Positions 2,462 to 32,486 of a DNA stretch of 64,000 bases are shown here, piece by piece. The notes under the pieces are model-generated. The model worked only from the letters and a program-made list of their open reading frames with translations, had not been told where the DNA came from and did not search any database. Both the position numbers and the translations under genes were made by a program. The stretch covers positions 2,108,001 through 2,172,000 of the forward strand of contig NZ_CP019646.1 of assembly GCF_001999965.1 (NCBI RefSeq), in the 5' to 3' direction. Source of the DNA: Limihaloglobus sulfuriphilus. Lineage in GTDB: Bacteria > Planctomycetota > Phycisphaerae > Sedimentisphaerales > Sedimentisphaeraceae. Every line of letters begins with the position of its first letter. Within the stretch, counting starts at the first letter, position 1.

Positions 2462-4360
2462 ATGAGTTTTAAACCGTTAAAATTTGGTATAAAGGCATTT
2501 TTGCCTACAACGCGGCCGGAGCTGAAAAAGCACGGGCGGCGGAATCCCGACATTATCCTCGTGACGGCGGATGCATATGTTGACCACCCATCATTCGGTG
2601 CGGCTCTTATCGGGCGGTACCTGGAGAGCCTGGGTTTCAGCGTGGCGATACTTGACCAGCCCGACTGGCGTAGTGCCGACGATTTCCGCTCGCTGGGCCG
2701 GCCGCGGCTGTTCTGGGGGATTACCTCGGGTGCGGTTGACTCGCGGCTGAATAACTACGCCTCGATGGGGCACCGCCGCAAAAAGGATGTCTATTCGCCC
2801 GGCGGCAAAACCGGAATCCGGCCGGACAAACCCCTGCTAAGCTATGCCGCCCGCGCCCGGGAGGCATTTGCGGACGTGCCGATTATACTCGGTGGACTCG
2901 AGGCATCGCTTCGCAGGCTGGTGCATTATGACTATATCGAAGACCGCATGAAACGCTCATCGCTTACCGACGCCAAGGCGGATATGCTGGTCTTCGGCAT
3001 GGGTGAGCTGGCAATCGCCCAGATCGCCCGCCGTCTTGACAGCGGCGAATCCATATCTGATATGACCGACATCGCCGGCACCGCTTTCCCGCTGCTTAAA
3101 TCGAACGATCCCGGTAGAGACGCAATGCTTGCGTCTCTCTGCGCCACAACAGATTCCCCGCCAATTCAAAAAAACGCAATGCCTGCGTCTCAGAAGGAAG
3201 GAAAGGAAACTTTGCCAGTCCTGCTGCCCTCTCTGCAAGAGCAGACCGAAAACAGCGAGCTGGTGATGACAGCGCAGCTTGAGTACCAGAAACACGCCCT
3301 GCCCGGCGGAAAACCCGTTGTGCAGGAACAGAATCCCGGCTGGATACAGGTCAACCCGCCGATGCGGCCGCTCACCACCGCGGAAATGGACGCCTTGTAC
3401 GAGCTGCCGTTCACACGCCGCTGGCACCCAAAATATGATGCACTCGGCGGCATACCGGCATTGGAGCCGGTGAAGTTCTCGATACTCTCGCACCGCGGCT
3501 GTTTCGGCGGCTGTTCGTTCTGCTCGATTTTCTTTCACCAGGGCAAAGAAATATCATCACGCTCGCAGGAATCAATACTCGCCGAAGCGGAGTCATTCAC
3601 GGTGCACCCGGATTTCAAGGGCACCATCCAGGATGTCGGCGGCCCCAGCGCCAACATGTACCGCATGGGCTGCACACGCAAGAGCATCTGCCGGCGGCCA
3701 AGCTGTATATTCCCCAATATCTGCCCCGACCTGAACACCGACCATAAGCCGCTGATATCGCTGCTGCAAAAACTGGCGGACTGGAAACGCCGGCAGAAGA
3801 AGAAGTCGCATGTATTCGTATCTTCCGGCATTCGCAGCGACCTGGCGAACCTCTGCCCGGAATATATAGACCTCGTGGCAAAGGAGTTTGTCAGCGGACA
3901 TCTAAAGGTAGCGCCGGAACATACAAGCCGCCGCGTGCTCAACCTCATGGGCAAGCCCGGCTTCGGCACGCATAGGAAATTTGAACAGGCCTTCGCCAAA
4001 AGCTCTGCCGCCGCCGGCAAGAAACAGTACCTCGTGCCGTATTTTATCAGCTCACACCCGGGCTGCGGAGAAGATGAAGCTCTCGAGCTGGCGGAATATC
4101 TGATAAAAAACAACCTTCGCCTCCGTCAGGTGCAGGATTTCACGCCCGGCCCGCTGGCAATGTCAACCGCTATGTTCGTCTCGGGCCTTTCGCCAGAGAT
4201 GAAGCGTATATTCGTGGCTCGCGGCAGAAAAGACAAAAAACTCCAGGCATCGCTTATCCAGTATTTCATGCCGGAGAACGCCGGCGAGGTAGCCGCGTTC
4301 CTAAAACGCAAACGCCGCCACGACCTGCTAAAAAAAATCCCCCGCCCCAGACGCAGGTAA
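2462..4360 (+). CDS. ygiQ: YgiQ family radical SAM protein (UPF0313)
   Basis: A radical SAM protein of 632 residues. It has the N-terminal UPF0313 domain (DPSFG/RYLESLGF type), then the CxxxCxxC cluster motif in RGCFGGCSFCSIFFHQG at Cys347, Cys351 and Cys354. A second cysteine-rich stretch (CTRKSICRRPSCIFPNICP) and a Lys/Arg-rich C-terminus follow, as in E. coli YgiQ. The family's substrate is unknown. About 60 residues around 219-280 look like an insertion relative to the family core: low-complexity sequence coded by palindromic DNA repeats at 3114-3191 that keep the frame open. It stands alone, diverging from the toxin-antitoxin pair and converging on the 4425-4970 gene. Confidence 0.92.
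   Translation: MSFKPLKFGIKAFLPTTRPELKKHGRRNPDIILVTADAYVDHPSFGAALIGRYLESLGFSVAILDQPDWRSADDFRSLGRPRLFWGITSGAVDSRLNNYASMGHRRKKDVYSPGGKTGIRPDKPLLSYAARAREAFADVPIILGGLEASLRRLVHYDYIEDRMKRSSLTDAKADMLVFGMGELAIAQIARRLDSGESISDMTDIAGTAFPLLKSNDPGRDAMLASLCATTDSPPIQKNAMPASQKEGKETLPVLLPSLQEQTENSELVMTAQLEYQKHALPGGKPVVQEQNPGWIQVNPPMRPLTTAEMDALYELPFTRRWHPKYDALGGIPALEPVKFSILSHRGCFGGCSFCSIFFHQGKEISSRSQESILAEAESFTVHPDFKGTIQDVGGPSANMYRMGCTRKSICRRPSCIFPNICPDLNTDHKPLISLLQKLADWKRRQKKKSHVFVSSGIRSDLANLCPEYIDLVAKEFVSGHLKVAPEHTSRRVLNLMGKPGFGTHRKFEQAFAKSSAAAGKKQYLVPYFISSHPGCGEDEALELAEYLIKNNLRLRQVQDFTPGPLAMSTAMFVSGLSPEMKRIFVARGRKDKKLQASLIQYFMPENAGEVAAFLKRKRRHDLLKKIPRPRRR
3114..3191. repeat. Palindromic repeat pair inserted in-frame in ygiQ
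   Basis: The first unit (3114-3138) is GTAGAG followed by a palindrome with perfect 10-bp arms AGAGACGCAA / TTGCGTCTCT around a TGC loop. A second, degenerate copy of the core (ACGCAATGCCTGCGTCTC) lies at 3174-3191. The intervening DNA stays in frame with ygiQ and encodes low-complexity sequence. Units starting with GTAGAG and ending in CTC also occur in non-coding DNA near 52.0, 56.7 and 60.2 kb. Confidence 0.7.
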
Positions 4361-4424
4361 TTTAACAGGCAGTTATATCCGCAGATTCCGCCGATTATCG
4401 CAGATTATTATCATGTATTTATCA

Positions 4425-4970
4425 CTAATCACTCCGCCCATAGGTTAAAGTGTGACGGTAAAAGGTGCCGCCTCTCCAATTGTACTCAAAGGAGTGGTCT
4501 GAAGGAGCGTAAAGATGAACAGCTACGGTCAATTGCCCCTCTGCTATATAATACACATAAACATTTGGTGCATAGGTGGGTACCTTTTGCGGGTCTCTTG
4601 GAAGCTTGATCTCACGCCCAAGTACACGGCTCAGTTCTTTTTCAAGGACATGAGAGTTTGCAAACTTAGCATTCCTCGCCAACACTTTATCGTTGGCAAA
4701 TACATTCTCCATCTCAGGACTGTGGCCTATCAAGACCATAAAGGGTCTTTCAATGGACTCTGACTCAAAGGGAAGTGAATCGGTTTTAACTGCATACTCA
4801 AGAACAATATTCGTAATCTGCTCAGCGTGTTTCATGCGTATCGGATCCATAGCCTCCTGATACTTCCTGTCCATGTGCCGGTATATCACAATACATGTAA
4901 CAACAGCCACAATCACAAACAGTGCAATACCACAAATCACCCACAAATACGTTAAACTTTTATTCTGCAT
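4425..4970 (-). CDS. Hypothetical single-pass membrane protein
   Basis: A 181-residue protein that I do not recognise. It has one N-terminal membrane helix (about residues 8-30, WVICGIALFVIVAVVTCIVI) followed by a soluble, probably extracytoplasmic domain of about 150 residues. The soluble part carries FMVLIGHSPEMENVF and a tyrosine-rich end (PNVYVYYIAEGQ). It has no cysteine clusters or recognisable catalytic motif. It converges on ygiQ with 64 bp between the stops and lies just downstream of the rRNA terminator, so it is probably transcribed on its own. The long frame and plausible domain structure make it a real gene; no function can be assigned. Confidence 0.6.
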   Translation of the reverse strand: MQNKSLTYLWVICGIALFVIVAVVTCIVIYRHMDRKYQEAMDPIRMKHAEQITNIVLEYAVKTDSLPFESESIERPFMVLIGHSPEMENVFANDKVLARNAKFANSHVLEKELSRVLGREIKLPRDPQKVPTYAPNVYVYYIAEGQLTVAVHLYAPSDHSFEYNWRGGTFYRHTLTYGRSD

Positions 4971-5121
4971 AGATTAAATTTAAATCTTGTCAATTGAAAG
5001 TCAAGGGTCAAATCTACAAGAATCAGTGTGCCGGCGACAGCTCGTTCCAGTTGGTTGTGCAGCGGGGACTTCTGCGGCGGAATAATACGCTCTATCACTT
5101 AAAATTCATCTCCACCCCTAT

Positions 5122-5167
5122 ACTATAAAATAGAAGAAGCCCTCCTGGTTTTAACCAGAAGGGCTTC
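5122..5167 (-). terminator. Rho-independent terminator of the 23S-5S operon
   Basis: On the minus strand, immediately after the 5S gene, GAAGCCCT and CTGGTT pair with AACCAG and AGGGCTTC (stem 5136-5167, one mismatch). The stem is followed by a T-rich run (TTCTATTTTATAG). Position and strength fit the end of the rRNA transcript. Confidence 0.85.
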
Positions 5168-5172
5168 ATAAT

Positions 5173-5278
5173 GCCGGCGATAACCTACTTTCGCCCAAGG
5201 GACTATCATCGGCCGGTTGGGCTTAGCTTCTGAGTTCGGAATGGGATCAGGCGTTTCCCCAACAGTATGGTCACCGGC
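5173..5278 (-). rRNA. rrf: 5S ribosomal RNA
   Basis: The minus strand carries the conserved 5S core, including CCCATTCCGAACTCAGAAG and the 3' segment GGGCGAAAGTAGGTTATCGCC. The 5' GCCGGTGACCATA pairs with the 3' TATCGCCGGC to close helix I. Its length of about 106 nt is slightly short but within the bacterial range. It follows the 23S gene after a spacer of about 310 bp. Confidence 0.93.
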
Positions 5279-5293
5279 AAGTTCATTTACTAA

Positions 5294-5359
5294 ACGGTTT
5301 GGTTAAACTAATAACTAATAGTGAATAACTAATAGTTATTAGTTGTTCACTTAAACCGT
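5294..5359. repeat. Inverted repeat in the 23S-5S spacer
   Basis: ACGGTTT at 5294-5300 and AAACCGT at 5353-5359 enclose nearly self-complementary AT-rich arms (AACTAATAACTAATAG against CTAATAGTTATTAGTT). This forms a hairpin of about 65 nt in the spacer transcript and belongs to the same ACTAATAGT family as the two repeats flanking the 23S gene. Confidence 0.6.
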
Positions 5360-5454
5360 ATTGTATATAAAGTTACTACAGTTGACACGTAAAGAATCTA
5401 TCAATACGCTGTAATCAAATTCAATAAGAATATTTGTTAAACTAATAAATATAA

Positions 5455-5575
5455 GTGAATAACTATTAACTAATAGTTGTCGAATTCGCTTCGCTGGTAC
5501 TTGTAAAAAGTATCAGCCCAAGGCTGAATCCTTCACTATTAGTTTTTCACTATTCACTATTAGTTTATAATCAAT
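5455..5575. repeat. ACTAATAGT-family spacer repeat, 3' side of 23S
   Basis: This unit contains internal inverted ACTATTA/TAATAGT tracts around a core that includes GAATTCGCTTCGCT and a TACTTGTAAAAAGTA-like segment. A second copy lies at 8775-8891 on the other side of the 23S gene in the same orientation. The rest of the 5279-5587 spacer shows no gene. Confidence 0.65.
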
Positions 5576-5710
5576 AATTGATTGATGCGGTCAAGTTATT
5601 GGACGTTAGTACCGGTTAGCTTAATACATTTCTGCACTTACACATCCGGCCTATCAACCTGGTAGTCTTCCAGGGTCCTTCAGATATTAATCATGGAATC
5701 CTCATCTCGG

Positions 5711-23097: not shown

Positions 23098-23982
23098 ATG
23101 CAGACAAAACAAGAAATACAGGCCCTGCTTGCCGGCGTAGCGGCGGTTCCAAACCACCGGCTCGGCCAGAATTTCCTTATAGATAAGAATCTGCTCGAAT
23201 TCCTCCTGCAGCAGGCCTCTGTAACCGCTGATGATATAGTATTTGAAGTCGGCTGCGGTACCGGTACACTCTCTCAAGACCTGAGCGAGAGAGCCGGTGC
23301 GGTTGTTATTGTAGAATATGACCGGCTTATGTGCCGGATAACCGCCGGAGTGCTGGCAGGCAGAGAAAATGTAACTATGATAAACGCCGACGCCCTGGAT
23401 AATAAAAATAAAGTAAACCTTGAGGCGATGCAGCGGCTGGCCGCACTGCGGAGGCAGTTCAAAGGCAGACTCATGCTCATTGCCAACCTGCCCTACCAGA
23501 TAGCAGCGTCTCTTATGTGCAATCTTGTTACTGCTGAACCTGTCTTTGACGCGATGTATATCACCGTTCAGAAAGAGGTTGCCCAGCGGATGTCCGCAGG
23601 GGCCGGTGATAAGCACTACGGAATACTCTCGATACTCATGCAGGCAGCGGGCAATGTCAAACTGCTCAGAAAACTGGGGCCCGATGTCTTCTGGCCGGCG
23701 CCAAAGGTCGAATCGGCTATGGTTTCGTATGTCCGTGATGAGGGAAAATGCTCTTTGATAGAAAATCCAGATATTTTAAAACGCCTCATATCTGTCTTTA
23801 TGGGGCACCGCCGGAAGATGATGAAGGCATGTGTTAAATTTGTTCCGGAAGAGTTCTCCGGCATAAACGAATGGGACTCGTTATTTGAAACGGCTCGGAT
23901 AAATCCTCAAGACCGTCCAGAGAAGGTTCGTCCCGAGCAGTATGTTGAGCTTGCAAACGCCGTATCTCAACGGCTGAAATAG
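23098..23982 (+). CDS. rsmA: 16S rRNA dimethyladenosine transferase RsmA (KsgA)
   Basis: Methylates two adjacent adenines of the 16S 3' hairpin late in 30S assembly. The 294-residue protein has the Rossmann SAM site FEVGCGTGTLSQ, the acidic VIVEYDRLM, the NADAL box and the catalytic NLPYQIAA. A C-terminal helical domain binds rRNA (about 210-290). It lies 26 bp after the AEC transporter gene and converges directly on the PBP2 gene, their stops being adjacent bases. Confidence 0.95.
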   Translation: MQTKQEIQALLAGVAAVPNHRLGQNFLIDKNLLEFLLQQASVTADDIVFEVGCGTGTLSQDLSERAGAVVIVEYDRLMCRITAGVLAGRENVTMINADALDNKNKVNLEAMQRLAALRRQFKGRLMLIANLPYQIAASLMCNLVTAEPVFDAMYITVQKEVAQRMSAGAGDKHYGILSILMQAAGNVKLLRKLGPDVFWPAPKVESAMVSYVRDEGKCSLIENPDILKRLISVFMGHRRKMMKACVKFVPEEFSGINEWDSLFETARINPQDRPEKVRPEQYVELANAVSQRLK

Positions 23983-26058
23983 CTATCTGCCGTCTTCGAA
24001 CTCACCAATATAACCCTCTTCTCTCAAGATTTCAAAACTCTTGAAAGCGATCGGTGCCGCATCTGATGAGCCGTGCAGCCCCCCCTCTATTACGACCGCA
24101 ATCGCAACAGAGCGGCCGCGGCTGTCCTGGGCGAATCCGACAAACCACGCATTAGCCGGAGCCTCTGTCGAACCGGTTTTGCCAAACAACTCTACCGTAT
24201 CATCATCAAAGCCCGATTCTTTATAGGCTGTATTGGCGGTTCCGCCGGTTTCATATACTACCGCAGACATGCCGTCTTTTATTGTCTCAATTGTATTATC
24301 AGCAATCCCAAGCTGTTTTGGAGGCGCCTGCCGGTTTTTGTCCCTGTAGAGTGTCGGCTGAATAAAAACACCGCCCCTGGCAATAAGTGCCATAGAATTT
24401 GCAACCTGGAGCACTGTAACCCTCAGATTGCCCTGGCCCATGCCGAACCATTTACGCTCTGATGCCGGCAGAGGCGGCAGATCTTCAAAAGTTTTTACGT
24501 TTTTTTGGGGTATGCTGCCGGATATTATACCCTGTGATTCCTGCAAGCCCCGTGACTGTTCGAGGCTTACCTCGGCGTAGCTCAGATCTGCATCGGCGAG
24601 GATCCGCCTGCCGAAACCTATATCATAAAGCCATCTTTGCAGTTTCTCGGATTCTATCCTGTGGGCCAGTTTTGTAAAATAAATGTTACAACTGCCTCTA
24701 ATGGCGTTTCTGGCGTTATTGCCGCCCTCATACTGCCACCTCCAGTCATGACAGCTTCCGTTTCGCTGCAAGAGGCATCTGGGCCAGTTTTCCTCCGGCA
24801 CCGGCGGGCAGCTTATAATTGAGTGCTGTGTAACCTTGCCCTCTTCCATGCCTGCCAGCAGTATTGTCGGTTTAATCGATGAGCCCGGAGGATAGAGGCT
24901 GTACATGGCTCTGTTCTTTAATGGTGAATTTGGAGAGTTCTTGATTTCTGTAAAATCTGCCCGCATCTTATTGAGGTTGTAAGAGGGAGTTGAAACGCTT
25001 GCAAGAATTTCGCCTGTCGCAGCATCAATAATCACAATTCCGGTAGGCTTGCTGCTGTTTTTGTTTGCCTGGGGGTTGCTGACCCAGTCTTCGATCCTCT
25101 CCTGAAGAACCGCGTCGATGGTGAGGTTTACGTTCATGCCGAATTCGCTTGCAATCACCTCTTTTTCGCCGTTGTGTCCAAGGTATGTAACCTTTCCGCG
25201 GCGGCCTCTTAGAAGCGGTTCAAAAACGTATTCCACTCCTGTAAAACCCGCAAGCTCTCCCTCTTTGTATTTCATCAGCTCATCAGAGCTGAACATTCCC
25301 TTATCCGGCTGGGCGGGATTAACCCACCCGATTATATGGGCGGCAGTCTCATCAAATGGGTAGCTTCTGGTTGAGGAAACATCTATTCCGACATCATCAT
25401 CTGCGATAAAGCGTATTTGAGCAGCGTTTTTAGCCTGCTCATTGATGTCGGCAACACAGTGCCACTGTGTATGCATTTCCGCAAGATCATTTACCTGCGC
25501 CTCCATTATCAGCCTTTGCTCTTCGGGGATACTGCGGTAATCGCTCAACGTCATCTCTGTATTGGGAAAGTTTCTTTTCATAGCGAAAAATTCCCGAAGC
25601 CTCCAGATACGGCTATTTATTTCCGACAGATTTGTCTCGATAATCTCCCGGGTTATTCCCGGCAGCCCTAAGAATTCTGCAATAAGCTCATTAGTCCTCT
25701 CCAGCTCATCTGCGAGCTCTTCGTGCCAGTATTGAATCGCGTCTTCCGGACTGATACCCCTGTCCTGAGCTGTAAATAGAGCGTTGGCCAGCCAGAATTT
25801 TTCGTCTTTGAGCCGGATATATCTGTACAGCAGACAGAGTTTGAAATCAGCAATCTCCTGGGCCATCGGGCGGCCTCTGCGGTCCAGGATCATTCCCCTC
25901 AGCGTTGGCAGCTCCCTTGGCGGGGCAATCCCGATATTCGATACGATTTCACGGTTTTGCTCTGAGAGTGCGGCCTGGATCCACAGCAGTCTTGCCAGGC
26001 AGATGCCCAGCATAATGGTAAATAATATGATTAAGAATTTTAACCGTGAGTTATACAT
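23983..26058 (-). CDS. mrdA: Penicillin-binding protein 2 (elongation transpeptidase)
   Basis: Class B PBP that cross-links peptidoglycan in the elongasome. It has one N-terminal membrane anchor, a dimerisation domain (PBP_dimer, about 50-320, including FTGVEYVFEPLLRGRRG) and a transpeptidase domain with all three active-site motifs: Ser393-x-x-Lys396 in PPGSSIKPT, SCN at 456-458 and KTG at 627-629. At 691 residues it is somewhat longer than E. coli PBP2 (about 630) because of a coiled insertion around 75-200. It is the last gene of the mreB-mreC-mreD operon and starts right after the mreD stop. Its presence argues for a peptidoglycan wall. Confidence 0.95.
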   Translation of the reverse strand: MYNSRLKFLIILFTIMLGICLARLLWIQAALSEQNREIVSNIGIAPPRELPTLRGMILDRRGRPMAQEIADFKLCLLYRYIRLKDEKFWLANALFTAQDRGISPEDAIQYWHEELADELERTNELIAEFLGLPGITREIIETNLSEINSRIWRLREFFAMKRNFPNTEMTLSDYRSIPEEQRLIMEAQVNDLAEMHTQWHCVADINEQAKNAAQIRFIADDDVGIDVSSTRSYPFDETAAHIIGWVNPAQPDKGMFSSDELMKYKEGELAGFTGVEYVFEPLLRGRRGKVTYLGHNGEKEVIASEFGMNVNLTIDAVLQERIEDWVSNPQANKNSSKPTGIVIIDAATGEILASVSTPSYNLNKMRADFTEIKNSPNSPLKNRAMYSLYPPGSSIKPTILLAGMEEGKVTQHSIISCPPVPEENWPRCLLQRNGSCHDWRWQYEGGNNARNAIRGSCNIYFTKLAHRIESEKLQRWLYDIGFGRRILADADLSYAEVSLEQSRGLQESQGIISGSIPQKNVKTFEDLPPLPASERKWFGMGQGNLRVTVLQVANSMALIARGGVFIQPTLYRDKNRQAPPKQLGIADNTIETIKDGMSAVVYETGGTANTAYKESGFDDDTVELFGKTGSTEAPANAWFVGFAQDSRGRSVAIAVVIEGGLHGSSDAAPIAFKSFEILREEGYIGEFEDGR

Positions 26059-26571
26059 TTAGAAACGCCTGTCAGTCTGGCGCTGCGGCAGCCCTAATAA
26101 CTTTCTTATGTATTCCGCTGCCTGCCAGATGAAGGGACCTGTGATTGCTGTATATATTGACGCGGCGAGAATCCGCATAATCATCCTTGGCATAATGTCT
26201 GAAGTTTTCCAGAGTATCAGCGGTTCGGCTATGATCAGCGACAGAAAAGTTAAAACGAAAAGTATGAGCACCTGATACCTGATCTGCTCGAATTGAATCA
26301 ATCCCCGAATCCTTGAGTACAGCGTACCGGCGATTCCGTAGCCGATCATGCACGGCCCGATCGCCGTACCGGATACGTCAGCCATAAAGCCCACAAAGAA
26401 CGCAATTCCTATAGCGTCTTCGCTGGAAGAATAGCTGATCAGGATTGCCATGATTATCGCCATCATTTCAGGTTTTATGTTCAGCTCGGTGACGGCAAGA
26501 AAATTAGTTAGATTGCCTGCGTCTATAACAGCGAAGATAAGTATTATTATTGAATAGAATATCCAGGCCAT
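26059..26571 (-). CDS. mreD: Rod shape-determining protein MreD
   Basis: A 170-residue membrane protein with about five hydrophobic segments, between mreC and the PBP2 gene. MreD sequences are poorly conserved; the assignment rests mainly on gene order, size, helix pattern and the FVGFMADVSGTAIGPCMIGYG segment, which resembles the family's conserved GLLxD-x(4)-PLG region. It bridges MreC to the cytoplasmic MreB filaments and PBP2/RodA. The start is four bases after the mreC stop. Confidence 0.88.
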   Translation of the reverse strand: MAWIFYSIIILIFAVIDAGNLTNFLAVTELNIKPEMMAIIMAILISYSSSEDAIGIAFFVGFMADVSGTAIGPCMIGYGIAGTLYSRIRGLIQFEQIRYQVLILFVLTFLSLIIAEPLILWKTSDIMPRMIMRILAASIYTAITGPFIWQAAEYIRKLLGLPQRQTDRRF

Positions 26572-26574
26572 CTT

Positions 26575-27381
26575 TTATTCCTTCTCCGGGGTTATTACAG
26601 CAACATTGTTCAGATCGGATGCCCTGTATATGGGCAGTACTGTGATGTCCCATAAAAGCGGCGAGCTTTCCGAGGGCCACGCCCTGACAACCTCTCCGAT
26701 AACCCTGGAAGCCGGCAGCTTGCCCGGTATTGCTTCGGCGAGCACAGTATCGCCGGGTTTTACGTCCTGCGATGTTGAAACGAGGTCTATCTTACAGCTT
26801 CCCAGACCGGTTCCCTTGAGGTTCCCCGTAATCTTTTTAGACTTTCCTTCACGGGAGATTATGACGGGAATATTGGATTTTGTATCAGTAACAAGAATCA
26901 CCCGGGCCGTTGTAGAGGATGTTTCACCTATAACGCCTATAATTGTATTCTGTCCGAGAATATATTGGCCTTTTCTTATCCCGTGACTGGTGCCCTTGTC
27001 GATCGAGAGATACTCGTCCTGTTGGTAGGTTATTATTCCGGCAGTTGTTACAAGTATCTCTTCGTTTGGAAAGAATGCTTTGTAGCCCGCCAGCGTTTCG
27101 TAGTCCCGGGCAAGCCTGTCCAGATCAGCTTCGAGGTTTTTATACGCCGCCCAAAGTCTGTTGTATTCCCGGCGTGAGACGGTTTCGTAATTTATGCTTC
27201 CGGGTTTTATAAGCCGGTAAGGAAGTTCTTTACCAATGCTCAGTGCAGGTTTAAAAAGCTGGACAAAAAAGAAATTCAGGCTTGAGGTAATTCTTTGAGG
27301 TGTAAACAGCAGAAATAGAGACAGACCCAGAAGGGCGATGAATAGTTTTGTTTTTGTCTTCTTAACCTGGTGCCTGGCCAT
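26575..27381 (-). CDS. mreC: Cell shape-determining protein MreC
   Basis: A 268-residue protein with an N-terminal membrane helix (about 12-32), a coiled-coil (about 60-95, NRLWAAYKNLEADLDRL) and paired beta-domains (about 100-265) with YLSIDKGTSHGIRKGQYIL and GVIGETSSTTARVILVTD, the classic MreC boxes. MreC forms periplasmic assemblies that activate PBP2. The gene sits 37 bp downstream of mreB and four bases before mreD. Confidence 0.95.
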   Translation of the reverse strand: MARHQVKKTKTKLFIALLGLSLFLLFTPQRITSSLNFFFVQLFKPALSIGKELPYRLIKPGSINYETVSRREYNRLWAAYKNLEADLDRLARDYETLAGYKAFFPNEEILVTTAGIITYQQDEYLSIDKGTSHGIRKGQYILGQNTIIGVIGETSSTTARVILVTDTKSNIPVIISREGKSKKITGNLKGTGLGSCKIDLVSTSQDVKPGDTVLAEAIPGKLPASRVIGEVVRAWPSESSPLLWDITVLPIYRASDLNNVAVITPEKE

Positions 27382-27418
27382 ATATAACCATTTTTCAAAT
27401 ATCCCCGCCGCCGGAGTC

Positions 27419-28474
27419 TTAATCCCAGGTGTAATCCGCCTGGTCCATTGTATCTTTCCATTGTTCGAGGTTTTCTAAGTAAACGTTTGTTCCCCGGGCA
27501 ACGCATGTGAGCGGATCGTCCGCGATCGTAACAGAAATTCCCGTTGCCTGTGATAATACCTTATCCAGACTTCTAAGCATTGCCCCGCCGCCGCAGATAT
27601 GTATTCCGTTGTCGATCAGGTCCGCAGCCAATTCAGGCTCTGCCTTTTCGAGCGTAACTGTAACGCATTCAATGATTTGAGAGATAGGTTCTTTGAGTGC
27701 TTCTCGGATTTCTTCGCTCGTTATAACAATTTTTCGCGGAAGTCCAGAGATTGTATCACGTCCGGCAACTTCCATCGTCATTTCTTCGCCAAGAGGAGCG
27801 GCAGAGCCGATTTGTATTTTTACCTTCTCAGCGCGTGCCTCGCCGATTAACAAATTGTAAGTTCTTTTAAGATGTGATATTATAGATTCATCAAAATCAT
27901 CGCCGCCAACGCGTATAGACGAGCAGCTGGAGATATCGGCAAGTGACATGATTGCAACTTCCGTCGTACCGCCGCCGATATCAACGATCATTGACGCGGT
28001 TGGTTCGGTAATCGGCAGTCCGGCTCCAATGCCCGCCGCCATCGGCTCATCAACAAGATAAACCTTTCTGGCACCTGCACGTTCGGCACTGTCAATAACT
28101 GCGCGGCGTTCAACTTCCGTGATGCCGCTGGGTATGGATATGACAACCCGAGGCCGTACAAGTCTGCCGCGGCCGTGAACTTTCTTGATAAAGTAGCTCA
28201 GCATCGCCTCAGTAATCTCAAAATCACTGATTACGCCGTCTTTGAGCGGGCGGATAGCGGTGATTGAGCCGGGGGTTTTCCCGAGCATTTCCTTGGCTAC
28301 TTCGCCAACGGCGGAACCGTTGTTCAGGACGATGTTTGTACCTTTTCGCACAGCCACGACCGAAGGCTCATTCAGCACTATACCTTCATTCCTCACGCAG
28401 ACCAGAGTATTGCACGTACCAAGGTCTATTCCCATATCAGTACTGAATTTGCCAAGAATCGCGTCCCGGAACAC
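27419..28474 (-). CDS. mreB: Rod shape-determining protein MreB (bacterial actin)
   Basis: ATP-dependent filament protein at the inner membrane that guides side-wall synthesis. The 351-residue protein begins FSTDMGIDLGTCNTLV (phosphate 1), continues with IVDIGGGTTEVAIM (phosphate 2) and ICGGGAMLRSLD (adenosine motif). A short extra N-terminus (MFRDAILG) may be the membrane-binding amphipathic segment. The start is 38 bp after the 48-codon microprotein gene. Presence of a complete mre operon distinguishes this organism from planctomycetes that lack it. Confidence 0.97.
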   Translation of the reverse strand: MFRDAILGKFSTDMGIDLGTCNTLVCVRNEGIVLNEPSVVAVRKGTNIVLNNGSAVGEVAKEMLGKTPGSITAIRPLKDGVISDFEITEAMLSYFIKKVHGRGRLVRPRVVISIPSGITEVERRAVIDSAERAGARKVYLVDEPMAAGIGAGLPITEPTASMIVDIGGGTTEVAIMSLADISSCSSIRVGGDDFDESIISHLKRTYNLLIGEARAEKVKIQIGSAAPLGEEMTMEVAGRDTISGLPRKIVITSEEIREALKEPISQIIECVTVTLEKAEPELAADLIDNGIHICGGGAMLRSLDKVLSQATGISVTIADDPLTCVARGTNVYLENLEQWKDTMDQADYTWD

Positions 28475-28511
28475 TTTGCTGCCCTTCGATCTTAAAACCT
28501 TTTAAGAGTTA

Positions 28512-28658
28512 TTACTCTATTATTTTGAATATAGAGCCGTACTGGGAGTAACACCGAATAGCTACAAATACAGCTGTGGCCAGGGTTACCATCAGTGCAG
28601 AGCCTATCAAAGCGGTGTAAACATCGTTCGGGGCTGACTTTTTAACTTGTTTTGCCAT
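28512..28658 (-). CDS. 48-residue membrane microprotein in the mre operon
   Basis: A short gene (147 bases) starting MAKQVKKSAPNDVYTALIGS, with one membrane helix (about 14-35) and a C-terminal hydrophilic tail ending FKIIE. GGAG stands eight bases before the ATG. It lies 24 bp after the MreC-like coiled-coil protein gene and 38 bp before mreB, in the same direction, so it is probably co-transcribed. Positive-inside charge suggests the N-terminus is cytoplasmic. I know no family. A role as an elongasome accessory peptide is inference from location. Confidence 0.6.
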   Translation of the reverse strand: MAKQVKKSAPNDVYTALIGSALMVTLATAVFVAIRCYSQYGSIFKIIE

Positions 28659-28682
28659 GAATTTTCTCCGCTTTTATTTGTG

Positions 28683-29555
28683 TTACAGTTCGGTAGAGGC
28701 TGAATCACCAATCTTGGGCATGCTGCTTTTAAGCCCGATGATGCCGACACTTTTGCTTACATCTACGTCTGTGACGGTGATGTCGCAGATAAAGTTGACG
28801 CCTCTGGCTATATGGAACTTCATGCCGGATTTTACGCCGTCAGCTTTGCCCACGGATATAGAGACCAGATCATCTTTAATATCAGTTACCACACCCTGAA
28901 TCGGTGCATTGGTAAGGTTGCTGCCTGCCATGCTTACGTTTGAAGACACAGACTTTGTCACAGGCTCAGCCGTTGTGGTACTGCCAGAGCTTTTGCCTTG
29001 CATCAGCTGAGAGATTTTTTCTTCAAGCATGGCGTTTTTCTCCTGGTAGCGGCGTTTTTCCGCTTCAAGAGCCTCGAGCATAACAATTTTCTCATCAAGA
29101 GCCGTGGTCATCTCGTTGAGCCTGTTGCTGAGTTTGACGCTTTCAACCTGTTCACCGCTTAGCTGGTCACGTGTGGCGATAAGAGTTTTTTCCAGCTCAC
29201 CTATAGTCTGCTCAAAACTTTTTACAACGCCGGCCCAGCCGTTTACACGGTCCTGCCATTTAACAACGTCATGTTGAGCGTTTTTCAGCTCTACCATCGC
29301 GTCAGTTTTTTCTTTTTCCAGAACGGCAATTCTCTGATTGAGGCTCTCAATTTCATTCTTTGCCTTAACTAAACCTTCATCAGCCTGGCGAAGCTGCATA
29401 TTGGTTTTCGATTTAAGGGCATCGTAATTGGTCTGAAGAGTCTCATTTTTGTCCATTACATTACTTGTGTCAATAACGTAAGTTACGACTGCTCCGCAGA
29501 GGAAAATTGATACCAGTGTCAATAATACCGTGAGTACTTTTGTAAAGCTGTTCAA
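28683..29555 (-). CDS. MreC-like coiled-coil membrane protein heading the mre operon
   Basis: A 290-residue protein with an N-terminal membrane helix (about 8-30), a long coiled-coil (about 40-195, heptads rich in Lys, Glu, Gln and Leu), a Ser/Thr-rich linker and a compact C-terminal beta-domain (about 220-290). The last domain, with DDLVSISVGKADGVKSGMKF followed by GVNFICDITVTDVD, is like the MreC beta-domain pattern (xSIDKGxxxGIRKGxxxI). The overall architecture thus mimics MreC, but the gene is distinct and upstream of mreB. It probably acts in the periplasm with the elongasome. I do not know a named family; its own promoter lies about 115 bp upstream. Confidence 0.72.
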   Translation of the reverse strand: MNSFTKVLTVLLTLVSIFLCGAVVTYVIDTSNVMDKNETLQTNYDALKSKTNMQLRQADEGLVKAKNEIESLNQRIAVLEKEKTDAMVELKNAQHDVVKWQDRVNGWAGVVKSFEQTIGELEKTLIATRDQLSGEQVESVKLSNRLNEMTTALDEKIVMLEALEAEKRRYQEKNAMLEEKISQLMQGKSSGSTTTAEPVTKSVSSNVSMAGSNLTNAPIQGVVTDIKDDLVSISVGKADGVKSGMKFHIARGVNFICDITVTDVDVSKSVGIIGLKSSMPKIGDSASTEL

Positions 29556-29667
29556 AGTATAGCTCCTTGAATAATAGCAGGTTAGTGGTTACGGTTACTT
29601 ACTTTACCGTCCGCTGACCATCTGTTAACAGATATTTTTATAATTACACAATTTCAAACAAACAGGG

Positions 29668-29696
29668 ATTTTATGTTTGTAAGGTCTTTTGGTCAA
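29668..29696 (-). promoter_or_regulatory. Promoter of the mre operon
   Basis: Minus strand TTGACC and TAAAAT separated by 17 bp, about 113 bp upstream of the coiled-coil protein start. The long leader could hold regulatory structure. It is divergent from the promoter at 29790-29818. Confidence 0.55.
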
Positions 29697-29712
29697 GCAA
29701 TTTTTAATTTTA

Positions 29713-29746
29713 GCTGAAGGAACTTTTATTTAAAAGTCATTTCAGC
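29713..29746. other. Two-step hairpin between divergent promoters
   Basis: GCTGAA/TTCAGC and ACTTTT/AAAAGT form a stem with small internal bulges between the two divergent promoters. It could be an operator-like palindrome or chance structure in AT-rich DNA. Confidence 0.35.
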
Positions 29747-29789
29747 CCTCGATACGGCACACATTCGCTTTCGTGAAACGGGTAAAACC

Positions 29790-29818
29790 TTGACATATAA
29801 ATCCAAAACGGCTTTAAT
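29790..29818 (+). promoter_or_regulatory. Promoter of the secreted dockerin-like protein gene
   Basis: Consensus TTGACA, 17-bp spacer and TTTAAT, 33 bp upstream of the ATG at 29851. One of the best sigma-70 promoters in the window. Confidence 0.7.
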
Positions 29819-29850
29819 GTAATTTTGTTAAATTATAATTGAGGTTCTAT

Positions 29851-30549
29851 ATGCTTAAAAATATTTTTATCACGTGTTTTACTCTGATTCTGCCATTGAC
29901 ATGTTATTGCGGCACTGAAGAGGTCTTTGAATTCGACGGAGTAACGGACTATACTTTTGTAAAACAGGACTGGGCAGATTATAATCTTGAGCAAAACCAG
30001 GACAGGATCACAGACAACACGTGGATCACAAGAGGTGACTATGCAGGTATTTACAACTATTTCAGCGAAGAACATTACCAGAAGCTCGGCCCCTCGCCGG
30101 TAAACACCAGATGGGCCTTCGAAGGGCTCAACGGAAACCCTTACGGCGCAGTTTACGCTTCTAACTGGGAGAATCTTGTTTTTGACACCTGGGAAAATGC
30201 CCACCAGTCCGGAGCAGCCTATATTGTGGGCCTGGCGGCTGTTATGCATATTGTTGATCTGGATTACTACATTGACGTAAAATTTACAAGCTGGTCGTAT
30301 GGCACCCCGCCAAACGGAGAAACCGGCGGCGGATTCAGCTATATACGGGCATCAATCTCCGACGACGAATGGATCTGCACTGAGCAGCCCTCAATGGACG
30401 CAAACGGGGATTGTATTGTTGACATGGAGGATTTCGTGGTTTTGAGCAGCCCCTATGACAAAAAGAAAATCGATATGACAGAGATATATAACTTTGTATC
30501 ACAATGGCTTATGTGCAACCGGGAACCCCAGAGTGCCTGTTTAGAATAA
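29851..30549 (+). CDS. Secreted protein with a C-terminal dockerin/EF-hand-like motif
   Basis: A 232-residue protein with signal peptide MLKNIFITCFTLILPLTCYC; cysteine placement near CYC could suit a lipoprotein but this is not clear. The middle domain (about 20-180) is aromatic-rich and unrecognised. Near residue 190 is DANGDCIVDMEDFVVL, a calcium-binding loop of the dockerin type I / EF-hand class, followed by a second weaker half ending VSQWL. Such tails are common on extracellular proteins of Phycisphaerae. GAGG precedes the ATG at proper distance; an upstream TTG was not chosen. Confidence 0.72.
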   Translation: MLKNIFITCFTLILPLTCYCGTEEVFEFDGVTDYTFVKQDWADYNLEQNQDRITDNTWITRGDYAGIYNYFSEEHYQKLGPSPVNTRWAFEGLNGNPYGAVYASNWENLVFDTWENAHQSGAAYIVGLAAVMHIVDLDYYIDVKFTSWSYGTPPNGETGGGFSYIRASISDDEWICTEQPSMDANGDCIVDMEDFVVLSSPYDKKKIDMTEIYNFVSQWLMCNREPQSACLE

Positions 30550-30605: not shown

Positions 30606-30698
30606 AGTATTCGCACAAAGCTGAATATTTATTCTTAATCCTTTTATTAGAAGAGATTATACTTTACACGCGGCCATGTTTTGCGTATTATCGCTGAA

Positions 30699-32486
30699 AT
30701 GAACAGGCAAAATAACAGTGTTGGAATTGTAGAAACAAAGACTGTCAGAGTAGTGGATGCCCAATCACCTCTGACGCTCGATTGCGGCAGGGAACTGTCT
30801 CCAATTGATGTTTCCTACGAGACTTACGGACGTATGAACGAATCCGGTGACAATGTGGTGTATATCTGCCACGCACTGACCGGTAACGCTCATGTCGCCG
30901 GATACAATTCACCCGATGATAAAAAGCCCGGCTGGTGGGATGATTTTGTCGGCCCGGGTAAATATATAGATACAGATAAATATTTTGTCGTTTGTTCCAA
31001 TTTTCTCGGAGGCTGTTCGGGAACTACCGGCCCTACAAGTATAAACCCATCTAATGGCGAGCCTTATGCCTTAAACTTCCCTGTTTACACAATAGGCGAT
31101 ATGGTTCGGGTTCAGAAGTTATTTCTCGAGAAAATTGGCGTAAATCATCTTTTAGCCGTAATTGGCGGCTCAATGGGCGGGATGCACGCACTCAAGTGGG
31201 CGATAGAATACCCGGATTTCATGGACGCGGCGGTAGTTGTCGCTTCTACAAGCCGGCTGAGCCCCCAGGCGATAGCCTTTGATGCTGTCGGGCGTAATGC
31301 GATTCTGGCCGACAGGGATTTCCAGGATGGCAAATATACTAATGACAAAGGCCCTGAAAGAGGCCTTGGCATCGCTAGAATGATAGGCCATATAACCTAT
31401 CTTTCCGAAAAGGGTATGCGCGAGAAATTTGGCAGAGAGTTAAGAACTGCCCAGGATTACACTTATGATTTCAATCCGGAATTTTCTGTAGAAACATATC
31501 TTAACCACCAGGGCCAGAGTTTTGTAGAACGCTTCGATGCGAACTGCTACCTTTATATAACAAAAGCGATGGATTATTTTGATCTGGGTAGAGAATACGG
31601 TTCTCTTGAGGCAGCGTTTAAAAAGATAAAGGCAAAACTGCTTATAGTCAGCTTTTCGAGCGACTGGCTTTTCACTCCGGAGCAGTCAGTGGATATGGTA
31701 AATGCCGTAGTGGCAAACAATAAGAGTGTAAGCTACTGCAACATCGAGTCTCCTTACGGCCACGATGCGTTTTTGCTTGAACCGGATACTTTGGGCCCGC
31801 TGATAGGCGGTTTTCTCGCTTCTTCATTCGAGAGCCATGTCAGCCCCTTCGATCCCGAATCTATAGATTATGCCGACTTGCAGGAATCAGCGAAGAGAGT
31901 TCGCGTTGATTATGAGATTATCGAAGACGTTATCGAACCGGGCAGCAGGGTACTGGACGCGGGCTGCGGCAACGGAGACTTGCTGTATCGCCTTTCACGA
32001 GACAAAAACGCGTCAGTAGAGGGTATCGAGGTACGACAGGATCTTGTGATAAAATGTATCAGCAAGGGCATACCTGTTATTCACAAGGACATAGAAAACG
32101 GTCTTGACTGCTATCGGGATAAGTCCTTTGATTACGGCGTGCTTTCCCAAACTGTACAGACACTAAAAGAACCGGAATACGTTTTTCGCGAACTTTTGCG
32201 TGTTGCCAAGCGTGTGATTGTCAGCTTCCCAAACTTCGCTTACTGGAAGGTAAGGCTGAGCCTGATGCTCAAGGGACAGGCACCCGTTACGCCCGAGCTG
32301 CCGTTCGAATGGTACAACTCGCCTAATATACATTTCCTTTCTATAAAGGATTTTGAGCAGTTCTGCAGTAAAATAGGTGTTGTGATAGAAAAGAAAGTAC
32401 CTCTTCGCGGCAGCAGTCCGAGCACTATCAAGCCGGCTCCAAACTTCTTTGCGCCCCAGGCAATTTATCTTGTCCGCAAGGATTAA
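30699..32486 (+). CDS. metXW: Homoserine O-acetyltransferase fused to MetW
   Basis: A 595-residue protein made of two enzymes or subunits of methionine synthesis. Residues about 10-375 are MetX, an alpha/beta-hydrolase acyltransferase with nucleophile Ser158 in GGSMGG, Asp in SSDWLFTP and His in YGHDAFLLE. Residues about 395-595 are MetW, a SAM-fold protein with DAGCGNGD starting at 420. In many bacteria metX and metW are adjacent genes and MetW is needed for MetX activity; here they are one chain. The ATG has no strong ribosome site; a TTG 18 bases upstream is an alternative. Acetyl versus succinyl donor is not decidable here. Confidence 0.95.
   Translation: MNRQNNSVGIVETKTVRVVDAQSPLTLDCGRELSPIDVSYETYGRMNESGDNVVYICHALTGNAHVAGYNSPDDKKPGWWDDFVGPGKYIDTDKYFVVCSNFLGGCSGTTGPTSINPSNGEPYALNFPVYTIGDMVRVQKLFLEKIGVNHLLAVIGGSMGGMHALKWAIEYPDFMDAAVVVASTSRLSPQAIAFDAVGRNAILADRDFQDGKYTNDKGPERGLGIARMIGHITYLSEKGMREKFGRELRTAQDYTYDFNPEFSVETYLNHQGQSFVERFDANCYLYITKAMDYFDLGREYGSLEAAFKKIKAKLLIVSFSSDWLFTPEQSVDMVNAVVANNKSVSYCNIESPYGHDAFLLEPDTLGPLIGGFLASSFESHVSPFDPESIDYADLQESAKRVRVDYEIIEDVIEPGSRVLDAGCGNGDLLYRLSRDKNASVEGIEVRQDLVIKCISKGIPVIHKDIENGLDCYRDKSFDYGVLSQTVQTLKEPEYVFRELLRVAKRVIVSFPNFAYWKVRLSLMLKGQAPVTPELPFEWYNSPNIHFLSIKDFEQFCSKIGVVIEKKVPLRGSSPSTIKPAPNFFAPQAIYLVRKD

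Follow-up and report, generated by a model that had tools for sequence, protein, structure and literature searches.

The window, a stretch of 64,000 nucleotides from the 3.87 Mb single-contig genome of Limihaloglobus sulfuriphilus, carries on its minus strand the gene order CC, microprotein, mreB, mreC, mreD and PBP2, where CC encodes a single-pass coiled-coil protein (Table 1). The two open reading frames (ORFs) that an earlier note on this DNA had placed ahead of mreB are real and co-directional, and they directly precede the mreB-mreC-mreD-PBP2 genes, with gaps of 24 nt between CC and the microprotein gene and 37 nt between the latter and mreB. Promoter-like sites upstream of CC, plus one inside CC, are identified by consensus scans only, and a consensus scan of positions 23700–30100 places the sole minus-strand terminator-like site inside the PBP2 gene. 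Near the mre operon, a 601-aa ORF on the plus strand (30681–32486) encodes what we take to be a fusion of homoserine O-acetyltransferase with a MetW-like methyltransferase.

Table 1. Coordinates and characteristics of the mre operon and its two leading genes in the window.
Feature	Position	Strand	Characteristics
CC protein gene	28683–29555	–	290 aa, TTG start, single-pass coiled-coil protein
CC protein, predicted regions (residues)			cytosolic tail 1–8; TM about 9–27; coiled coil about 28–185; linker; small beta barrel about 214–290
CC six-stranded C-terminal barrel domain	28683–28919	–	below-threshold FlgT_C similarity
Microprotein gene	28512–28658	–	48 aa, single-pass, ATG start
mreB	27419–28474	–	GTG start; PF06723 1.1e-138, TIGR00904 over cut-off
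mreC (the operon's ordinary MreC)	26575–27381	–	PF04085 1.4e-24, over cut-off
mreD	26059–26571	–	position plus weak PF04093 0.0011 and TIGR03426 1.8e-6, both under cut-off
PBP2-type transpeptidase	23983–26058	–	PF00905 1.3e-43, PF03717 5.8e-16; TIGR03423 1.2e-83, under cut-off

The CC frame is open over 301 codons, with 11 codons upstream of the TTG start, and the sequence AAGGAG lies 7 nt before that start. Region bounds in Table 1 are approximate, and the charged tails predict the topology. The AlphaFold2 model of full-length CC (two sequences) contains a helix from residue 3 to 185, with a pLDDT of about 90 over the coil, and is poor C-terminally, with pLDDT mostly 30–54 from residue 191. 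If fully helical, the coil of about 158 residues would extend about 24 nm (arithmetic, at 0.15 nm per residue). The ends of the protein are conserved more than the coil, as expected if the ends make contacts: the mean majority residue in the family is 0.76 for the N-terminal tail, 0.50 for the TM segment and 0.50 for the barrel, versus 0.32 for the coil. CC has no usable match in Pfam or NCBIfam; the matches of the full-length protein (PPP1R21_C, golgin, SMC and similar) were dismissed as coiled-coil noise.

Modelled alone (residues 213–290, two sequences), the barrel forms six strands with a pLDDT of 78.5 and a pTM of 0.69. The window barrel matches FlgT_C (PF16538) at E 0.029, its 15.2 bits not reaching the curated cut-off of 27, and sub-threshold FlgT_C matches recur in 18 of 38 member barrels at E up to 1 (best 2.9e-5). 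Against solved structures, the barrel profile finds TsaP (3jc8) at E 2.7e-6, MreC (2j5u) at E 0.11 and FlgT (3w1e) at E 1.0. Fold searches were confined to the barrel because the C-terminal part of the full-length model is too poor. Their best matches are the N-terminal barrels of F1-ATPase (VIA Z about 10, rmsd mostly 2–3 Å over about 70 residues), also described as F1/V-ATPase barrels, a common small-barrel fold; Foldseek returned nothing at E up to 0.001, and MreC, TsaP and FlgT are absent among the best 50 matches listed in either of the two fold searches. On the profile comparisons, CC appears to end in one small barrel nearer to FlgT_C/TsaP than to the MreC barrel. It shares with these proteins a C-terminal barrel, TsaP being the best solved relative by profile, and differs from them in its long coil and TM anchor and in the lack of any flagellar or pilus gene in its operon.

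MreC binds PBP2 and MreB/MreD. CC had been described as MreC-like, a description that holds for its layout and fails for its family. Like MreC, CC has a predicted N-terminal anchor, a coiled coil and a C-terminal beta domain, and is encoded in the mre operon; the glycine-rich pattern claimed for the beta domain is present as GKADGVKSGM and is conserved within the family. It is nevertheless highly improbable that CC is a divergent MreC paralogue. Beyond the layout and the weak match to 2j5u, such an origin would account for a hhalign match between the barrel and a profile of 25 local MreC proteins (probability 45%, 48 columns) and for the few single member barrels touched by individual NCBIfam MreC models (best 0.00063). 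Yet no MreC model appears among the Pfam or NCBIfam matches of CC at E up to 1, PF04085 matches only 1 of 38 member barrels (E 0.0055), and a single barrel of 78 residues stands against the 147 positions of PF04085. Moreover, unlike MreC, CC has no family match over cut-off and a coil of about 158 residues, coexists with the true MreC of its own operon, and occurs in genomes without MreB. By these comparisons CC is laid out somewhat like MreC but is not MreC.

The pair is not lineage-specific, as had been proposed; CC is spread over the phylum. With one genome counted per species and profile searches covering Planctomycetota, CC relatives occur in all 5 genomes of the family and in 142 of the 148 genomes of the order (G100 and G130 match only weakly, over the coil). 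At E up to 1e-6 the class has relatives in 295 of its 297 genomes, and at E up to 1e-5 the phylum has them in 263 of 294, of which 246 lie below 1e-9. The other 17 phylum matches lie above 1e-9; families f56, f74 and f78 account for 14 of them, and one weak-match genome, G504, has an mre locus (L138) without CC. A search for close matches in an 84,980-species genome collection yielded one CC relative, in the Planctomycetota MAG VRUG01000005.1, which has the gene order of the window. Gene neighborhoods were compared in 125 distinct CC loci, a non-random set consisting of best matches and loci picked for diversity, deduplicated by CC sequence. The order contributes 58 of these loci, the rest of the class 37 and the rest of the phylum 30.

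The microprotein has a basic N-terminal tail and a TM segment that opens with NDVYT and is followed by YG, and it has no Pfam or NCBIfam match at E up to 1. It is easily overlooked by gene callers. In 119 of the 125 loci (median gap 33 nt), a script located a small single-pass ORF whose start lies no more than 250 nt past the CC stop, and 98 of these 119 ORFs contain the motif [DNSG][VILM][YF][TVASG]. Reading the six misses by eye added five, bringing the total to 124 of 125: in L031, L045, L047 and L062 an ORF with the motif falls under the hydropathy cut-off, and in L129, where two CC genes lie in tandem (4001–5707), the microprotein follows the second copy. L121 is the sole locus of the 125 without a small single-pass ORF after CC. 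As a control, an antisense window of the same width, placed slightly further downstream and hence not covering identical bases, contains a small single-pass ORF in 2 of 125 loci. Among 17 related-locus pairs, which are not all independent, dN/dS is 0 to 0.29 in 15 (dS being saturated in two of them, both zero values) with the remaining two at 0.48 and 0.69; these values indicate purifying selection on the microprotein. Conservation across the phylum, together with the mostly low dN/dS of the microprotein, argues that the pair is not a product of chance. The gene order suggests a partnership of CC and microprotein, although it proves no contact between them.

The CC gene of the window starts at 29553–29555. 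Among the 95 loci of the class, 91 begin CC with TTG or GTG, and 55 of the 58 loci of the order use TTG; the CC start is ATG in all 30 phylum loci outside the class, and the microprotein start is mostly ATG (96/119). The conserved weak CC start may set the CC:microprotein ratio.

Comparison of relatives also bears on the link to mreB. Far from being absent upstream of mreB in all relatives, the two genes are kept there: at least 102 of the 125 CC loci have mreB downstream in the same orientation. These comprise at least 53 of the 58 loci from the order, 29 of the 37 from the rest of the class and 20 of the 30 from the rest of the phylum, all lower bounds because several loci covered only 1.5 kb downstream. 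The pair is nonetheless found without mreB. First, five genomes of the order, all from family f4, contain the pair with mreB absent from the flank covered. Second, MreB (PF06723, E up to 1e-30) is found in 274 of 294 phylum genomes, and 17 of the 20 MreB-less genomes, some of which are incomplete MAGs, carry CC at E below 1e-15; the other three have weaker CC matches (G457 at 3e-11, G596 and G612 both at a few 1e-6). Third, all five MreB-less loci that were read (L126, L132, L143, L144 and L145) contain CC and a small ORF.

The reverse arrangement, mreB without the pair, is also observed. Among the 31 phylum genomes without CC, the 20 identified individually all have MreB; 19 of them belong to families f56, f74 and f78, and one to f79. 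Hydrazine synthase is present in 6 of 7 genomes tested from f56, f74 and f78 (the exception being G407) and in 0 of 4 other genomes tested; these three families are thus regarded as anammox-type. Anammox-type genomes lacking the pair retain mreB and mreC. Five anammox-type loci (L136–L139 and L141) include DNA upstream of mreB; in each, an lnt-like ORF lies directly before mreB, with neither CC nor a small single-pass ORF between them; lnt was confirmed by Pfam in L136 and L141, the two checked, and moeA precedes lnt in one. The anammox lineage may have lost the pair, or other lineages may have gained it. The absence of the pair in anammox bacteria offers a natural contrast to the remaining phylum.

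These distributions weaken the earlier note's proposal that the two proteins are elongasome parts. In its strict form, the pair would be a dedicated elongasome subunit, either replacing RodZ as the link from MreB to RodA-PBP2 or adding a second MreC-like platform. The linkage to mreB and the MreC-like layout of CC fit such a role, as does the rarity of RodZ, whose HTH_25 domain was detected in 11 of 118 phylum genomes (controls, 10/14 positive) and was not found (E up to 1e-5) in the genome that contains the window, in line with PMC5147048, in which RodZ is reported absent from Planctomycetes. Like RodZ, CC is predicted to cross the membrane once, is encoded next to MreB and could connect it to the wall. 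However, its cytosolic part of about 8 residues is too short for a RodZ-like HTH, and CC is not confined to genomes with MreB. As CC persists in MreB-less genomes and the pair is missing from anammox genomes that keep mreB and mreC, the pair is, on gene content, not an obligate MreB accessory, and a dedicated elongasome subunit is unlikely.

The upstream neighborhood provides a different candidate role. Of the 32 loci with 3.5 kb of sequence upstream of CC, at least 16 carry lnt there on the same strand (a lower bound from a single-sequence search) and 8 encode a HEAT-repeat protein there. L143 has the order lnt-CC-microprotein without mreB. The ancestral order was probably moeA-lnt-CC-microprotein-mreB-mreC, with the HEAT-repeat protein added in some genomes. 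The pair could therefore serve outer-membrane or lipoprotein biogenesis, or act as a tether between inner and outer membranes, and lie beside mreB by way of this ancestral cluster. A coil long enough, by arithmetic, to span a periplasm is compatible with such a function, and the conserved position beside lnt is just as consistent with a role in the outer membrane or in lipoproteins. On the other hand, lnt is found less often than mreB in CC loci, and the two Pfam-checked anammox-type loci keep lnt while lacking the pair. We regard this role as quite unlikely.

The reading we prefer, to which we assign an even chance, is that CC and the microprotein form an ancestral planctomycete module for envelope growth, consisting of a periplasm-spanning scaffold and a microprotein partner inherited as a functional pair from an early planctomycete ancestor. 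The conserved N-terminal helix would anchor CC in the inner membrane, the coiled coil would cross the periplasm, and the small FlgT_C/TsaP-like barrel at its end would most likely attach to peptidoglycan or to a complex of the envelope. This docking is conjectural, since the best structural matches of the barrel, those of F1-ATPase, represent a common fold. The microprotein may lie next to CC in the membrane with a cytosolic basic tail, acting as its partner or regulator, and the two together may scaffold envelope growth. Where mreB is present, the pair is mostly encoded just before it, which would coordinate synthesis with MreBCD-PBP2. The target of the pair is presumably not MreB itself, because the pair outlives MreB.

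Deletion of mreB in Planctopirus limnophila gave no growth or budding phenotype, according to PMC6952346. This result agrees with wall growth independent of MreB and leaves room for other scaffolds; it may also mean that any wall role of the pair is minor in that species. In the literature searched, including the available portions of PMC6952346, PMC10632474, PMC5147048, PMC8137920 and PMC3444138, no description of the CC-microprotein pair was found; the last of these mentions one small PVC-wide signature protein, CT421.2. The two-gene module is near-universal in the class and occurs in most of the phylum, linked to mreB but also found in its absence. Having no family of its own among Pfam and NCBIfam matches, the pair presents direct targets for deletion and localization.

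Planctomycetes mostly lack the RodZ HTH and have no recognizable FtsZ, ftsZ being over cut-off in 0 of 118 phylum genomes. A broader proposal is that the pair belongs to the core of the FtsZ-less machinery by which they grow and divide, as a phylum-wide ancestral envelope scaffold that outlasted MreB in genomes without it and disappeared as a whole from anammox bacteria. We consider this possible, if somewhat doubtful. Weak FtsZ/tubulin-like matches, at E about 1e-13 and below cut-off, distinguish three genomes of genus g12 (G013, G017 and G021), which belongs to the same order as the window, from the remaining 115 of the 118.

Several CC loci also contain additional related ORFs. In genus g88, an extra ORF (L082, 4367–4792, and L158, 1417–1725, both on the minus strand) lies between CC and a separate microprotein gene and combines a microprotein-like TM segment with a FlgT_C-like barrel; it is apparently degenerate in L158. 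Interpretation of the L082 ORF as a microprotein-barrel fusion was rejected because a separate microprotein follows, making it an extra gene. In three loci of family f44 (L146, L147 and L148), a shorter CC-like ORF lies just upstream of CC.
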